Shown piece after piece: positions 17,157 through 23,623 of a stretch of DNA of 38,189 bases. The stretch is taken from assembly GCF_006539865.1 (NCBI RefSeq), contig NZ_BJNV01000051.1, positions 1 through 38,189 on the forward strand, read 5' to 3'. A model generated the notes under the pieces. That model was not told the origin of the DNA and did no database searches. It worked only from the letters and a program-made list of their open reading frames with translations. Position numbers and translations under genes: made by a program. The stretch comes from Zoogloea ramigera (GTDB lineage Bacteria; Pseudomonadota; Gammaproteobacteria; Burkholderiales; Rhodocyclaceae). Position 1 is the stretch's first letter, and each line of letters begins with the position of its first letter.

Positions 17157-19127
17157 CTACTCGGGGATAGCCAGCACCTCGCCAGGCTTGAACCACTTGC
17201 TCTTCTGAGCGTATTCCAACGCCTTGAGTCCATCCTTCGCCCAGAGCACGAGCGCCAAGCTCTCCTTCGCACGGCTGCTGGTCACGTAGAGGAGCCGGAG
17301 CGTTCGGTCAATTGACGTCTCCTTGCCCTCCTCCACGTTCTTGACATCGGAATCACCGAGAGGGGCACCAAACAGGCGGTCGTAGGCAAAAAGATTGCCT
17401 GCGGCATCCTCGTCGTCCATCACGACCATTACATGGTCGAACTCTGATCCCTTGACCACTTGGTGCGTCGCGAGATGAGACTTTCCGCTCAGGTAGGTCT
17501 TGAACCGACGAAGCTGAATCCAAGGCGACTCCAGGAGCCTATGCCAGCCGCGAGCTAATCTGTTCTCGAGGGGCTCCGGTTGCCTTGGCTTCGGCGCCGG
17601 CGGTGGTGGGTTAGTGTTGTTGAACGCAGCCACCAGTCGCTTGTCAGGCTCGAACAAGCCAACCTGGAGTACTGATTCGAGCACCTCGCGCACAGTCACT
17701 GCGGGCTTGACGCACACCTTGACGAAGTTTTCGACAGCCTGCTGGTATGCCTTGAGCAAATGCGTGCGAGCTTCACCGTCTTCGGGGAGCTCCTGTAGCC
17801 GGCCGTAGCGATGTAGCACTTCCATGACGGCGAAGTCCGATGGGGCGCCACCATCCTTGATACAGTCGGCGAGGTCCATTACTTCCCGCAAGAGCATCTG
17901 GACTGCACTTGGCCCTGAGACATCGCCATTTGCATCCGGACGGACCGAGTCTGGATCGAGGAGAGATAGCGCCTCAAAGATCTCCAAAAAGTTGCCACGG
18001 CGGGCCACCAGAGAGTGCTCCAAGGCGAGCACCTTGTGCCCTGAATTACCTGGTTTCCAGTCGGCCAAGCCCGTCGCGGCCTGCATCGCCGACTCGCAGA
18101 GTGCCTCGCGACGCAGCTTGTCCTCTGCCGAGGCTGATGTATTGCCGATGAAAATACGAACTAGACCTGCTGACTTCTCTGCGCGCGGATGCTGTTGGAC
18201 GGCTTTCTTGGGCTGGGTTCGCCCTTCCAAATCAGAATCCCAAATGTCATTTATGAGATCAACAATGCGCCGTTGGCTTCTATGGTTCATCTCCAGCTTT
18301 GGCGTCGCCCAACCCCCTGGAACCATGCTCGAAAGATCCGCATGCCCATCCAAGTAGATGCGCTGGCGGTGGTCGCCGAGCAGTCCCAGTATCAGCCTTG
18401 ACGGGTCTTCAGCAACGACCTCCAAAAGCGCGTCTAGGATGCCCTTCATCGTGTCCTGTGACTCGTCGATGAGGATGACGGGATGCTGGTCCCGAAGGAT
18501 GCGACGCAGCGTCGGCCTCTGCTTGAGTAACCAGGAAGCCAAGGCCAAGACCTGCGAATGGTTCAGCGCTCCATCGCCATGGCGTTTACGGTCTGGGCTG
18601 TAGGTGAATTGCGGTATCGCGGCGAGAGCGGCTGCTTTGGTCTCTAGCTCCCCAATTTTCTCCTTGTCTTTGTCGGTTGGACCATTCTTTCGCCCAGCAG
18701 CGGCGTCGCGCACTTTCTGAAGTGCGTCCGCGTTCATGGCCAGAAGTGCTTCACGAATGTCGTCGTCGAAGCCTGAAATCAAGTCCCAGCAAAACGAGTG
18801 GATGGTGGCGATCTCAGTTAGGTCGTTCGTACCAAGACGACCCGTGACCACGAGCGCAGCGTTCTTCGTGTACGTGATGACACGAATCGTCTGAGCACGA
18901 GCCCTTAGCTCTCGCGCGAACCTGATAGCAGGTGCAGGCTCTACCTGCGCATCCTCCATGCCGACCCCAGTGAGCTTACGAAGCACTGCCACCAAGGTGC
19001 GCGTCTTGCCGGACCCGGCACCGGCAAACAGAAAGAAGCTCCGTGGTGGCGTGCTGGTAACGTAGCCAACGATTTCGTCGACGACACCAGCGTCTCGTTC
19101 ATTAGGATCGTCCTTTACGGCAGCCAT
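17157..19127 (-). CDS. gajB: Gabija-type UvrD-like helicase (GajB-like)
   Basis: A 656-residue superfamily 1 helicase. Visible motifs are Walker A AGAGSGKT (35-42), TYTKNAA (motif Ia region, 85-91), DESQD (221-225), GDHRQRIY (251-258), NHRS (281-284), the late HQVVKGSEFDHV motif V and YVTSSRAKESL motif VI, so the core is complete. In Gabija, GajB senses nucleotides or DNA ends and works with the GajA nuclease complex against phage. The ATG at 19127 overlaps the last base of the gajA TGA stop (TGATG) and has a G-rich Shine-Dalgarno upstream; a longer frame to 19172 is unlikely. It is longer than the roughly 500-residue GajB of Bacillus as I remember it. Base composition is lower in GC than the flanking genes, consistent with horizontal transfer. 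Confidence 0.85.
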   Translation of the reverse strand: MAAVKDDPNERDAGVVDEIVGYVTSTPPRSFFLFAGAGSGKTRTLVAVLRKLTGVGMEDAQVEPAPAIRFARELRARAQTIRVITYTKNAALVVTGRLGTNDLTEIATIHSFCWDLISGFDDDIREALLAMNADALQKVRDAAAGRKNGPTDKDKEKIGELETKAAALAAIPQFTYSPDRKRHGDGALNHSQVLALASWLLKQRPTLRRILRDQHPVILIDESQDTMKGILDALLEVVAEDPSRLILGLLGDHRQRIYLDGHADLSSMVPGGWATPKLEMNHRSQRRIVDLINDIWDSDLEGRTQPKKAVQQHPRAEKSAGLVRIFIGNTSASAEDKLRREALCESAMQAATGLADWKPGNSGHKVLALEHSLVARRGNFLEIFEALSLLDPDSVRPDANGDVSGPSAVQMLLREVMDLADCIKDGGAPSDFAVMEVLHRYGRLQELPEDGEARTHLLKAYQQAVENFVKVCVKPAVTVREVLESVLQVGLFEPDKRLVAAFNNTNPPPPAPKPRQPEPLENRLARGWHRLLESPWIQLRRFKTYLSGKSHLATHQVVKGSEFDHVMVVMDDEDAAGNLFAYDRLFGAPLGDSDVKNVEEGKETSIDRTLRLLYVTSSRAKESLALVLWAKDGLKALEYAQKSKWFKPGEVLAIPE

Positions 19128-21427
19128 CAGCCCGCCCCCTTCTTGGAAGGTGCCAACTCCGTGTCGAGCCAAGTCAGTGCATCGGCGATATATGCGGGGC
19201 AGACTACCTTGTCGCCCAAGCTGATGCGCTCAAACATGGTTGCAGCGAACTCAGCCTTGGCAAAGCTCCCCCGCAGCATTGCATGCAGGTCCTTGCTAAG
19301 TGCCACGAGATCCTGCTGCGCGATAACGGTCTTAACGACTAGGCGCAGCGGCCCAACCAACTTCGGCAGTGGGACATCATCTTCATCCGGCTTCTGGTTC
19401 TTCTTTTGCTCAACGCTCTTGAACCAATCGATATTGGTCAGGATCAACGAATCTTCAAAAGAACTCGGCCATGGGCCGCCCTTTGGTATGGGGACCTGCC
19501 ATGCAAATCGGACCCGCCCACCACTCTGGTCGCTCCAAACCTGGTCGGCCTCCTTCGGGTCGGCCAAGAGGTGCAGATCCTTCTGCTTAGGATGCCAGCC
19601 ATTGAGCGTGTCGTTCCCGCACTCGAGTAACTCGGGGTCGACGATTGCTGCAGCTTTGCGGACGGTTTTGCCTTGGGCGTCCTTCGTCACTTCTACAGGG
19701 TCCACATCGGTGATGACCACCGTCGGAATACCAAGTCTCTCAACGAGCGGGCGCAGCCGATGTGCGTGGCGCCCACCAAGGTCTAAGAAGGAGATGTACC
19801 GCTTGTCGAGTTCATGGAAGTCGCGCTCAATGAACAGGGGCACGAGCATCCTCTCCGCAGCCCCTTCGACGAAGATCGCGGCGTCCGCGAATAAGAGATC
19901 CGTGTGCTGCACTCGGAAATACCGCTCCGCGAAGGTTCGGGTTTCTTTGTCGCTCCCGAATGCGGTGGCGAGGTCAATGACGTCTGAGCTTGGCATTCCG
20001 CCCGCAGCCGCCGCAACTCGCCGTACATAGCGCAGCCGATCGAAGTTTTCAGCGTGAGCCAAGTGACTCGCGTGGGTGCTGATGACCAGTTGGCTACTCA
20101 AATGTGCATGCTCAGGCGCCACCGGACTGATGAGCTCTGCCGCGCGTCGAGGGAAGATGCGCTGTACTTGAACATGTAGGTGCGCTTCCGGCTCCTCCAC
20201 CAACACTACATGCACGGCAGCGGGGCTACCTTCAGCCGGCTTCAACCTGGAGTCTCGGAACGAGACCAGTTGGTAGCTCAACGACTGCAGGTTCTGGTAA
20301 CCGAGTCCGATTGAATACTCTGGAAGGTAGACATCCGCCTGCTGGCCGTCGAGGCGGTACTGCACCGCCGTACTGTGGTCAAGTAAGTCGCCGGTCTGGA
20401 TTCGTGTTCTGAAATGAATCTCCTGGGGATCGTGAAGCGTCGGATACCCTAGCTTCTTCACATCCTCAATGGATGGCGTCAGCGCGGCCTTGATTCGCGC
20501 GTCGAGCTCGAGTTGGGCACTGGCGACGGCCGCGACAAGCTCCGGTTGATGGCCCTGACCTGTAGTCGCGATGTTGAGGTGCTGCCGCGCGTACTTCAGC
20601 AATTGGTTGGAAAACAGGCCAACGCGGTGCGTACCCGCCGTGGATCGAGTTTCTGCCTCCTCCCTGCCGAGGCCGCGTTGCGCAGCGACGAAATCTACGC
20701 GCAAGAGCTTGGAGAGCTTGGTGCGATCCACAGGAGCTGCCTGTGAAGGCAAAGCCTGCGGTGCAATAGCCGGCGGATTTGAAAATGGTCCTTGGGACGG
20801 GTCGAGCTTGTAAACCAAGACACTTCCAAGATCGGCCGGGTAGCGAAGCCAGTAGTCAATAAGGTCGGCCGGCCACGCGTGAGCCTCCTTCGGAAGGGCC
20901 ATCACTGGCTGTCTGGCCTCTCGATATCGCCAGGCCAGCTTCTGGAGCGCCTCCACCGAAGAAGCGGGCTCAAGGCGCATTCGAACGCCTACAGCTCCCC
21001 CGCTCCAGTTCAAGGAGGTGATGAAGGGTGAAACTAAGTTGTAGGACCCCGACTGCGCATCGAACCATAGATCCAGCGTGGGCATGCGTGCCAAGAGTTC
21101 AGAAAGCTGATCTTCCCATTTGGCAAGGTCGCCTGAGGCCGACGCGGGATCTTCCGTCAGCTTCTCCCATGCCTCGCCAAGCGCTCGCAGCGCGGGCCAC
21201 TGGTCGAGACTGATATCGAAGGCGCCGAATATCTGTCCCGTCGTTGCCAAGAAATTGCGGACTGCAGTGAGGATTGATGTCTTTCCACTGTTGTTGGCAC
21301 CGACTAGAACTGTCGTCTTCTTGTCGATCTGAACCCGAGCTTGGGCCAGGCGCCGGAAACGGCTGAGCTCAATGCACGTCAGACTGACGTTGGGCGCCTG
21401 TGAGGGCTTGGGCGGCTGAGCGCTCAT
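19127..21427 (-). CDS. gajA: Gabija-type OLD-family ATPase/TOPRIM nuclease (GajA-like)
   Basis: A 766-residue OLD-family protein. The N-terminal ABC-type ATPase has Walker A GANNSGKT (43-50), a long insertion with helical segments (about 80-380), Walker B VVLVEEPEAHLH (407-418) and an H-loop-like STHASHLAH (450-458). The C-terminal TOPRIM nuclease shows IFVEGAAE (518-525, E521 and E525) and ITDVDP (572-577), the acidic metal-binding residues. Pairing of a class 2 OLD nuclease with a UvrD helicase defines Gabija; GajA is a nicking nuclease inhibited by nucleotides in the studied system. AAGGAG lies six bases before the ATG. It is longer than the roughly 580 residues I recall for the Bacillus protein. 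Codon use is less GC-biased than in its neighbours. Confidence 0.88.
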   Translation of the reverse strand: MSAQPPKPSQAPNVSLTCIELSRFRRLAQARVQIDKKTTVLVGANNSGKTSILTAVRNFLATTGQIFGAFDISLDQWPALRALGEAWEKLTEDPASASGDLAKWEDQLSELLARMPTLDLWFDAQSGSYNLVSPFITSLNWSGGAVGVRMRLEPASSVEALQKLAWRYREARQPVMALPKEAHAWPADLIDYWLRYPADLGSVLVYKLDPSQGPFSNPPAIAPQALPSQAAPVDRTKLSKLLRVDFVAAQRGLGREEAETRSTAGTHRVGLFSNQLLKYARQHLNIATTGQGHQPELVAAVASAQLELDARIKAALTPSIEDVKKLGYPTLHDPQEIHFRTRIQTGDLLDHSTAVQYRLDGQQADVYLPEYSIGLGYQNLQSLSYQLVSFRDSRLKPAEGSPAAVHVVLVEEPEAHLHVQVQRIFPRRAAELISPVAPEHAHLSSQLVISTHASHLAHAENFDRLRYVRRVAAAAGGMPSSDVIDLATAFGSDKETRTFAERYFRVQHTDLLFADAAIFVEGAAERMLVPLFIERDFHELDKRYISFLDLGGRHAHRLRPLVERLGIPTVVITDVDPVEVTKDAQGKTVRKAAAIVDPELLECGNDTLNGWHPKQKDLHLLADPKEADQVWSDQSGGRVRFAWQVPIPKGGPWPSSFEDSLILTNIDWFKSVEQKKNQKPDEDDVPLPKLVGPLRLVVKTVIAQQDLVALSKDLHAMLRGSFAKAEFAATMFERISLGDKVVCPAYIADALTWLDTELAPSKKGAG

Positions 21428-21666: not shown

Positions 21667-22041
21667 TCACTCCCCAGCCACCACCTTCTTCGCCTTGCTG
21701 GCCTTGCTGCGTTCGCTTTTCTTTTTCAGGCCGATGGCGGCGACTTCGTTGGAGTCGAGGCCGTAGCGGACCTTGACTTCGCCCTTGGCGCCGACGATGA
21801 CGTTCTGGAGTTTCCAGCGGGCGCGGCGGACGGTGTCGCGGGCGGCGGCGGCGGTGTTGTCGGCGTGGATGAGGGCTTCTTCGGCGGCGAGCAGCTCTTC
21901 GTAGCAGAGGGTTGCAGCCTCGACGCTGTGTTCGGGGTTGATGGGAACGTAGTCGGGGATCTTCTTGAGGGCGAGGTAGGCCTCGACGTTGGCCTGGGTC
22001 TGTTCAGCGGAAACGCGGGTGTTCGGGTTGATGTTCGGCAT
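21667..22041 (-). CDS. Hypothetical protein with Lys/Ala-rich tail
   Basis: A 124-residue soluble protein of unknown function. It begins MPNINPNTRVSAEQTQAN, has a predicted helical middle rich in Ala and Glu (LLAAEEALIHADNTAAAARDTVRRARWKL), a conserved-looking YGLDSNEVAAIGLKKKSER segment and a basic tail (KASKAKKVV). There is no signal peptide or cysteine cluster. Proteins with the GLKKKSE ending are, from memory, found as small uncharacterised proteins in several phyla. GGAG lies seven bases before the ATG, and a good terminator follows, so it is a self-contained transcription unit. It lies beside the 21-bp repeat array. No function is proposed. Confidence 0.75.
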   Translation of the reverse strand: MPNINPNTRVSAEQTQANVEAYLALKKIPDYVPINPEHSVEAATLCYEELLAAEEALIHADNTAAAARDTVRRARWKLQNVIVGAKGEVKVRYGLDSNEVAAIGLKKKSERSKASKAKKVVAGE

Positions 22042-22280
22042 GGTGTCTCCAGTACATTGGGTTGTCGAGAGAAGCGGGCACTACGGTTGCCGATATTACG
22101 CCCGGGTGCGGCCCGCGTGAAGGTCAACGTCATTTTATTTGACGGTTTTTGCGTACACCATGGGATTACCCCCATGCGTCGGGGGTGGGGCGACGCCGAC
22201 GGCGCGGGAAAGCGTGGGCGAGGGGGCGGGGATGCCGATGTCAGGCGTGCCGATGGGGCCGTTTGCCCGGGCAGGCCTGT

Positions 22281-22545
22281 TTTTGGCGGTGAAACGGCGT
22301 TGTCGGGCGGAACAACAACGATGTTCGGGCCGACAACGTCGTTGTCAGGGCAAACATTGATGTTTTTCGGCCTGCAACAACGTTGTTGGGCCAAACAATT
22401 GAATTGTCGGGCCGAACAATTGAGTTGTCAGGCCGAGCGATGTTGTTTTTCGGCGTGCAACAACGTTGTTCGATGAAACATCGTTGTTGTCTTGGCAAAC
22501 ATTGACGTTGCAAGGCCGAACATCGTTGTTTTTTGGCCAAGGATG
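22281..22545. repeat. Degenerate 21-bp tandem repeat with palindromic core, about 13 units
   Basis: A GGCC/GGC-plus-A anchor recurs at about 22285, 22306, 22328, 22349, 22369, 22389, 22410, 22431, 22452, 22472, 22494, 22514 and 22535, a spacing of 20-22 bases. Between anchors are variants of the palindrome AACAACGTTGTT (also AACAATTGAATTG, AACATCGTTGTT). The 614-base gap 22042-22655 holds this array and no supported gene. The period of 21 equals two turns of B-DNA, and also seven codons, so both strands show spurious heptapeptide ORFs. No match to a known element is recognised. Confidence 0.85.
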
Positions 22546-22655: not shown

Positions 22656-23623
22656 TTACCACAGCTCGATGGATTCGAAGCCGGGGTCGGCCTTTTCTTC
22701 GACGGTGGGGATTTCGTCGGTGGGGGCGAGCTGGCCGACGATGCGGGTGAAGCTGGCGTCGAGGGTGGAGCCGAGCTCGAGGAGGTCGAGCACGCGGCCG
22801 GTGGCGTGGCGGACGACGTCGCTGACGGTGGCCTCCTGGCGGTTGGTGAGGCCGAGACTGAGGTACATGCCCTCGATGCTGTCGGTCATGGTCTCGAGTT
22901 CGAGGCGGGCCGAGATCTGGATGTCGCGGTAGGTGGTGCGCAGCTCTTCGACGGCGCTGCGGGTGATGGCGGCGATGTGCAGCATCTCCTGCGCCCGCCT
23001 GACGGCCTCGAGGCGGGCGCAGACGTTGTCGATGGCCAGGTCGGCGGCCTCGGCGACGATGGCCAGGTGGTCGCGGATGCGGCCGCAGTATTCGGCATCG
23101 TCGAGGGGCATGTTGACGACCAGGATGGAGACTTTCTCGTGGTTCACGACCATCCGGTTCTTGAAGCTGAAGATGCGGCCCATGCCGAGCATCTTGTCGA
23201 ACACCGACTCTTCGAGGGGCGAGGCGGGGCCGTTTTCGGTGAGGGTGATGGTCTGGCCGGGGGTGCGGAACTGGACATGCCCCTTGAGGCCGAACTCGGC
23301 AGTGGTGGCGACGGTTTCGCGGGCCAGCGACTGCAGGCTGTAGCAGCCGAGGGCGCGGCGGGCGTACTTGATCCTAGAAACGGCAGTTGACCGCTTTCCG
23401 TAACTTCAAGGGTCGCAGGAGCACACGCTTTCGTGCTTTCGCCGACGCTCACCCAGATGGTGACAGCGCTACACGCCCGCTGGCACGTCTGGGCGGGCGC
23501 CTGGCTTTGTCGCTCCGCCTTGCAGGCATGAGCCTGCCGCGTTGTCGCTTCGCGCCAGACACCCGCCCATACGCACCAGCAGGCGCGTCCAACTGCCGTT
23601 TCTAGGTTGATACGAATCCGGAT
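22656..23623 (-). pseudogene. Signalling-type (GAF-like) protein gene broken by a MITE
   Basis: The 3' part (22656-23372) reads without stops from KYARRALGCYSLQSLARET through VFDKMLGMGRIFSFKNRM to a helical C-terminus (LARLELETMTD, ending GFESIELW). The first about 110 residues look GAF- or sensor-like, followed by helices; the family was not identified. The reading frame is cut at 23372 by an inserted element (23373-23606). Removing the element and one TTGAT copy joins it to 23607-23623, giving IRIRIKYARR, with GAGGGG upstream but ATC where a start codon would be expected. What remains could only be translated from GTG 23204 or an ATG further in, as a 182-residue or shorter C-terminal fragment. 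It is therefore called disrupted. Confidence 0.65.
23373..23606. mobile_element. 234-bp MITE with 17-bp terminal inverted repeats
   Basis: The ends are CCTAGAAACGGCAGTTG (23373-23389) and its exact reverse complement (23590-23606). The direct repeat TTGAT flanks it on both sides (23368-23372 and 23607-23611), as expected for a 5-bp target duplication. The inside has no transposase and contains hairpins such as GCAGGC-ATGA-GCCTGC and CGCCCGC...GCGGGCG. It is therefore a non-autonomous miniature element. The CCTAGA-type end with a 5-bp duplication recalls the IS1380 family (ISEcp1 ends similarly), but this assignment is tentative. Confidence 0.9.

Follow-up and report, generated by a model that had tools for sequence, protein, structure and literature searches.

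The window analyzed here, a stretch of 38,189 nucleotides that is the entire contig C51 of the Zoogloea ramigera genome G000, carries an array of short palindromes at positions 22281–22545. A spacer defined by position only (22122–22280) separates the array from a probable promoter on the minus strand (22093–22121), which is followed on the same strand by a small open reading frame (21667–22041) encoding a protein of 124 residues. This protein belongs to an unnamed family, delimited with a hidden Markov model (HMM), and is the probable partner of the array. Directly on the 3' side of the array–gene pair, GajB- and GajA-type genes of the Gabija anti-phage system, identified with PADLOC, occupy positions 17157–21427. 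Two other elements of the window are a long CRISPR-like array at the start of the contig (19 to about 4800; repeat CGTCACTGCCGGATAGGCAGCTCAGAAA, spacing of about 60 nt according to Tandem Repeats Finder) and, read from the sequence at 23374–23605, an insert of about 230 bp with inverted ends CTAGAAACGGCAGTTG / CAACTGCCGTTTCTAG, which corresponds to the MITE of a first-pass annotation of this DNA.

The array is made up of about 13 degenerate units of 20 to 22 nt, with a core of the ACAAC/GTTGT type and GGCC-type linkers, and neither the array nor the spacer is assigned to a strand. It was characterized by autocorrelation against shuffled sequences, by Tandem Repeats Finder and by comparison with relatives. 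The self-match of 22281–22545 at lag 21 is 0.529, as compared with a mean of 0.252 (standard deviation 0.029, maximum 0.336) in 1000 dinucleotide-preserving shuffles. Lag 83 exceeds lag 21, with a self-match of 0.648, and lags 42, 62, 104 and 125 are likewise elevated, which indicates that about four units form one higher-order repeat; Tandem Repeats Finder reports periods of 21 and 83, and four units read from the sequence measure about 83 nt. Six palindrome centers with at least six of seven paired arm positions are found in the array; 500 shuffles average 1.25 such centers and reach 6 at most. The array is enriched in palindromes, though many of its units are imperfect. Hence, the coordinates and the description given in the first-pass annotation hold, and so does the autocorrelation peak at 21 that it proposed to look for. 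Its picture of uniform units of about 21 bp has to be relaxed, since units of 20 and 22 nt exist. The units are contiguous and degenerate, unlike the identical repeats and unrelated spacers of a CRISPR.

As 21 nt correspond to seven codons, the array could also be read as translated heptapeptide repeats, a reading that the first-pass annotation had named as the one that would overturn its own. Several open frames do cross the array, but open frames come cheap in stop-poor repeats, and the 83-nt super-repeat together with the 20- and 22-nt units breaks every frame. We regard this explanation as almost certainly wrong. Most related arrays overlap short ORFs of about 90–200 codons, and two of them (L087 and L117) touch longer ones.

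The small gene, previously described as unknown, still has no match in Pfam, NCBIfam or PADLOC, but it can now be assigned to a family and is likely to be the partner of the array. Other members of the family give only weak matches below cut-off, with unrelated names, and the family profile finds nothing better than E = 0.07 among PDB sequences. Members have in common a C-terminal signature, YGxDSxxxxxxGxKKxSER, followed by a basic tail. An HMM built from the Zoogloea relatives recognized array-adjacent ORFs in eleven more loci of a pattern scan (six cyanobacterial by title, the other five by protein resemblance, one of these proteins being a fragment) and in one Acidobacteriota locus. In every one of these loci, the array lies on the 5' side of the family ORF. 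Within Zoogloea, 15 of 23 genomes have the gene at E ≤ 1e-10; the profile search gave 60 matches in these 23 genomes, and the members tested below are the fetched loci rather than all matches. Counting in each case the genome that had been selected for its array, the gene is present in 1 of 397 Pseudomonadota (the genome of the window itself) and, at E ≤ 1e-6, in 16 of 395 Bacteroidota and 19 of 292 cyanobacteria. One draft genome contains eight strong paralogs. Conversely, three of ten array-bearing genomes (G060, G064, G068) gave no family gene, perhaps due to incomplete assemblies.

The family probably forms part of a superfamily wider than counted here. Three more distant relatives (L239, L264, L317) have tails of the type GG[TV][RK][RK]S[ED]RK[RK]P; a 21-nt array is found upstream of L239 (AATTCGGGTAGTCGTTTACTG) and downstream of L317. 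In addition, searches of Bacteroidota returned proteins of about 240–256 residues that resemble doubled relatives (L262, L263, L266, L234), with a 21-nt array upstream in L263 and downstream in L262, and a 16-nt period upstream in L266.

The association of gene and array was then counted on a core set of members. From 89 rows, removal of matches weaker than E = 1e-20 and of repeats left 76, and removal of a gene fetched twice (L083 is L044) left 75; upstream sequence was sufficient in 73 of these, and downstream sequence likewise in 73. With an array called at a lag-21 z of at least 3.5, a cut chosen after the values had been viewed, 58 of 73 distinct members have an array upstream and none of 73 has one downstream, where the largest z is 3.3; an earlier tally of 59/74 upstream had counted one gene twice. 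At z ≥ 5, an upstream array is still called in 50 of 73. The upstream arrays are distributed as 37/44 in Zoogloea, where the members were found by protein in fetched loci; 13/13 in cyanobacteria, ten of them detected via their arrays and the other three via the protein in genomes selected for arrays; 2/2 in Acidobacteriota, both from one array-selected genome; and 6/14 in Bacteroidota, two of the six coming from the array-selected genome and the rest amounting to 4/12 outside it. Eight of the 14 Bacteroidota members are thus devoid of a clear upstream array. In a cyanobacterial sample drawn by protein, which includes one member of the core set, an array is upstream in 13 of 24 and downstream in 5 of 24, and 11 of 24 have no clear upstream array. 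Six members with GFKKKSERKRP-type tails (L305–L309 and L311) have no clear upstream array. Comparison of the loci shows array and gene to be paired, with a strong preference for the upstream side. To judge from these sequences, four phyla or more have this pairing, and the small gene is likely to be the partner of the array.

AlphaFold2 models of the window protein and of L109, both computed from the same 13 sequences and of low confidence at the N-terminus, contain a helix at residues 12–27, a long helix at 40–93, a short helix at 98–102 and no strand (mean pLDDT 82.5 and 85.4, pTM 0.50 and 0.55, respectively). The basic tail is of low confidence in both. The model of the window protein matches no PDB fold at E ≤ 0.001, and the libraries searched recognize no DNA-binding domain in this protein. 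The predicted helix of 54 residues would be about 80 Å long, close to the 71 Å spanned by 21 bp.

The question arises whether the array acts as DNA or as RNA. Upstream of the small gene, a -35-like TTCACG (22116–22121) and a -10-like TAATAT (22093–22098) separated by 17 nt were read from the sequence as a probable promoter, and the ortholog in the relative G005 keeps this pair as TTCACT-17-TAATAT. A consensus scan with a cut at 9 of 12 positions, below which TTCACG-17-TAATAT falls and is therefore unlisted, found one promoter-like site inside the array, on the minus strand at 22431–22403, for 0.3 expected. If 22093–22121 is the promoter, the array is upstream of the transcription of the gene; the site inside the array makes transcription through part of it possible. 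The single strands of 22270–22560 fold better than shuffled sequences, with z of -7.9 for the plus and -7.4 for the minus strand, as is expected of palindromes. Among the 59 arrays submitted to folding, z is below -2 for 35 sense and 38 antisense strands and the sense strand is the more stable in 27.

These data bear on the idea of an RNA-level unit comparable to type III toxin–antitoxin systems, where transcribed repeats would bind or restrain the adjacent protein. By analogy with the order of ToxIN, tandem repeats with locus-specific words lie directly upstream of a small gene; they fold beyond shuffles, a promoter-like site is found within the array and 43 of 64 oriented arrays, gene-linked ones included, sit downstream of a co-directional gene. 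The latter bias is mild and counts to that extent against a pure DNA view. Nevertheless, neither strand is favored (27/59), and the symmetry would therefore be that of the DNA. Moreover, the probable promoter lies between array and gene, hairpins in RNA do not need a strict spacing of 21 nt and the predicted long helices do not resemble an RNase. Hence, an RNA-level unit seems to us distinctly improbable, and the RNA half of the "structured RNA/DNA element" proposed in the first-pass annotation finds no support in strand asymmetry.

The unit words differ between paralogs, with TAGAT/ATCTA, AATCA/TGATT, CTACAT/ATGTAG, TAGTNACTA and GTGCACGATCAACGTGCAC among them, and a second copy in one cyanobacterial genome has the word CGATGCATTAACAATGCAAGT. 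Arrays share 8-mers (above 0.08) in 17 of 17 pairs whose proteins are more than 0.9 identical and in 1 of 1516 pairs below 0.6 identity. Array and protein distances are correlated over all 59 arrays (Mantel test, rho 0.23, p 0.001) and not significantly so within Zoogloea (rho 0.03, p 0.26). Word sharing among orthologs can be explained by plain descent. Comparison shows that the 21-nt phase stays constant as the word changes between distant paralogs; this persistence beyond sequence similarity is not accounted for by descent. Of 58 distinct arrays, 27 reach p ≤ 0.05 for symmetry of the folded 21-nt profile and 31 miss it, the 59 arrays of the symmetry run including one gene twice. The initial proposal that phase and symmetry matter more than the letters, as in a cooperative binding array, finds partial support: the comparisons favor it, as the period survives between words that look unrelated.

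The constancy of the spacing extends beyond the gene-linked arrays. A first scan of genome contigs, in which two palindromes and a spacing of 21 nt were imposed, gave at least 117 stretches; among the matches listed, arrays occur in dozens of contigs of the Nostoc type, with a few further cases in assemblies of Acidobacteriota, Bacteroidota and Planctomycetes. Sixteen of these loci were inspected as sequence, and some are chance matches with no array. The same scan supplied the loci used for the ORF overlaps, the oriented arrays and the core spacings. With the gap left free (0–30 nt), the pairs among the matches listed for 12 genomes selected as array-bearing were nearly all 21 or 42 nt apart, with one at 22. 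The same free-gap search in 397 Pseudomonadota returned 21-spaced pairs in the genome of the window only, and one pair each, at other spacings, in three others. In loci where one 21-spaced pair was imposed by selection and the remaining spacings were free, 396 consecutive core spacings are distributed as 359 at 21, 24 at 42, 2 at 22, 3 at 41 and 8 others. Between adjacent units of the pattern-scan loci, 1171 substitutions were summed, or 3.3 per pair. Substitutions have thus built up with hardly any indels, a pattern indicative of selection on spacing. Longer ORFs flank most of the related arrays, whatever the orientation of the genes. A few loci have other periods: upstream of L316, the period is 20 rather than 21 (0.64 at lag 20), with a word containing CTTCCC/GGGAAC, and in L187 and L188 the best lags are 20 or 41.

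Arrays also occur apart from the gene. The first-pass annotation knew of no matching element, but the word of the window array is found again in the same genome on contig C20 (77% identity) and, through weak matches only, on C2. It had also proposed to look for the unit in relatives and plasmids; blastn finds the word in 2 of 59 other relatives, and two array queries give no match in 72,556 plasmid records. The orphan search in this genome used the window word and that of a second paralog, located on C9, which has a same-word orphan array on C14 (80% identity). Neither C20 nor C14 yielded a family gene. Over 488 bp, including about 150 bp of one flank, the C20 copy can be aligned to the gene-linked locus of G005 at 75% identity. 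It lies between two genes (L011, 4600–6600), again near possible defense genes; we take its neighbors to be the end of an HNH/DUF1524-type gene and an AAA ATPase gene. The genes on either side of the C14 array are presumably liv-type transporter genes, and REP sequences border the region of this array on both sides. In three cyanobacterial genomes (G061, G063, G069), there are many arrays as against one or two strong family genes. The dispersed arrays occupy intergenic gaps, sometimes within operons. In G005 and G007, an array occupies the space separating two neighboring genes, presumably genes B and C of a toluene-monooxygenase-type operon. The gap between them measures 14–28 nt in 11 of the 13 Zoogloea genomes that have the pair, and 414 nt in G005 and 355 nt in G007, which shows that arrays are gained, and that an array between close co-directional genes is tolerated.

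Gain of this kind is what would be expected of a selfish or mobile unit, in which the small protein would do for the array what RAYT does for REP, copying, moving or amplifying it, with the orphan arrays as its offspring. The array-filled gaps, the C14 copy with REP on both sides and the likeness of the C20 copy to a gene-linked locus, flank included, speak for it, and so does the occurrence of a REP sequence in 9 of 15 non-window loci examined (14 of the 15 being array loci), near the array in several. By distances measured by hand, GTAG-type REP palindromes touch the outer end of the arrays, or come within about 100 nt of it, in L270, L272, L274, L044 and L288; in L288, they are on both sides. 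On the other hand, REPs may merely have landed near arrays, the copies are too divergent for a recent move to be dated, and the protein, of 124 residues and predicted to be all-helical, matches no transposase family. All in all, a selfish unit appears unlikely.

We favor instead, with a probability of roughly 60%, the view that the array acts in cis, as the DNA component of a two-part unit composed of palindromes phased at about two helical turns, a promoter and a small gene, and that it is bound by the protein encoded in the same unit. According to the model, this protein, with a helix of 16 residues, a helix of 54 residues and a disordered basic tail, would bind its own array in side-by-side units of 21 bp. 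Once bound, it would coat the DNA upstream of its own promoter and have a role in autoregulation or as a boundary. The dispersed arrays may be secondary sites of action of the same protein. The binding, the regulation and the role of the orphan arrays are what we infer from the comparisons above. Going further, the chances seem evenly balanced that an undescribed class of sequence-specific DNA-coating systems exists in at least four phyla, in which a rod-like protein of about 124 residues would be associated with its own phased array, paralogs would have distinct words and the scattered arrays would serve as trans sites.

An array upstream of a gene for a small, basic-tailed protein, a phase of about two turns and dispersed secondary arrays might also evoke a centromere-like or partition site, where the small protein would be the adaptor, or else a site organizing the chromosome. 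However, the neighboring ORFs were grouped into clusters rather than annotated singly, and a partition NTPase did not show up in the 25 largest of these. Setting aside the family itself, antisense frames and ortholog flanks, the only ORFs that recur, beside three paralog groups, are ones that we take to be sensor-kinase-like. These are found at L191, L195, L203, L208, L213, L242 and L284 and could be there by chance, such genes being common. With eight strong paralogs in one draft genome and the blank search of plasmid records added to this, we consider a partition-like role very improbable.

If the small protein does bind its array, the pairs would show a DNA-binding rod that switches specificity while the helix register is kept, and would account for one class of the extragenic repeats found in cyanobacteria and elsewhere. 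What could pass for an isolated oddity becomes a testable system, with dozens of gene–array pairs, varied words and one spacing, and small genes left blank by the annotation libraries searched gain partners. If the wider DNA-coating class is real, it would offer natural orthogonal protein–array pairs that conserve the helical phase and leave the sequence free.

Finally, the array–gene unit can be compared with known systems. In plasmid iterons, tandem sites about two turns apart and with a replicon-specific word lie beside the gene of the cognate Rep binder. The arrays of the window and of the family have the same layout, spaced by about two turns beside the gene of a candidate binder, and the likeness is one of layout alone. 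In contrast with iterons, the units are palindromic, gave no plasmid match with the two array queries and belong to draft genomes where paralogs are numerous and orphan arrays occur; Pfam and NCBIfam return no Rep initiator for the window protein and only unrelated names below cut-off for other members. Type II parC–ParR systems have an array upstream of the gene of a small basic protein, a ribbon-helix-helix adaptor, with a ParM-like ATPase in the operon. Here too, an array precedes the gene of a small basic protein, but there are several paralogs per genome and the model, from a 13-row alignment that is weak at the N-terminus, has no strand for a ribbon-helix-helix. No ParM-like ATPase is found beside the array in the window, where the neighbors are GajA/GajB and a gene with no Pfam match. 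In type III toxin–antitoxin systems such as ToxIN, tandem repeats of about 34–48 nt lie directly upstream of a small gene. Position and locus-specific pairing are alike; the units of 21 nt, the symmetric DNA words with no strand preference, the all-helical model and the orphan arrays are unlike. As to an endoribonuclease toxin fold, the window protein and L109 are both predicted to have long helices, and PADLOC finds no match for either.

Among dispersed repeats, cyanobacterial STRRs are short tandem intergenic repeats with units of 7 nt. To our knowledge, no gene family is linked to STRRs or to TAACTGA-type heptamer repeats. The latter are described as short intergenic tandem repeats of 7-nt units (PMC4679880), and the arrays resemble them as short tandem intergenic repeats and differ from them in unit length. 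REP/REPIN elements with RAYT are dispersed extragenic palindromes, at times grouped in tandem and accompanied by a related gene elsewhere (PMC3733652, PMC3116915). The arrays share all three traits and are distinguished by their fixed period of 21 nt and by a linked gene with no transposase family match. By eye, the GTAG/CGTC tag is not regular in the array units listed, the word of L197/L198 containing GTAG nonetheless, and no RAYT tyrosine transposase family appears among the Pfam and NCBIfam results for array-linked proteins. The open-licence literature, subscription literature being outside the search, yielded nothing on the array–gene unit. No family library gave an accepted match, and the defining features of iterons, parC and ToxIN are absent or doubtful in the unit; its layout, an array beside the gene of a binder, is one known in principle from these same three systems.
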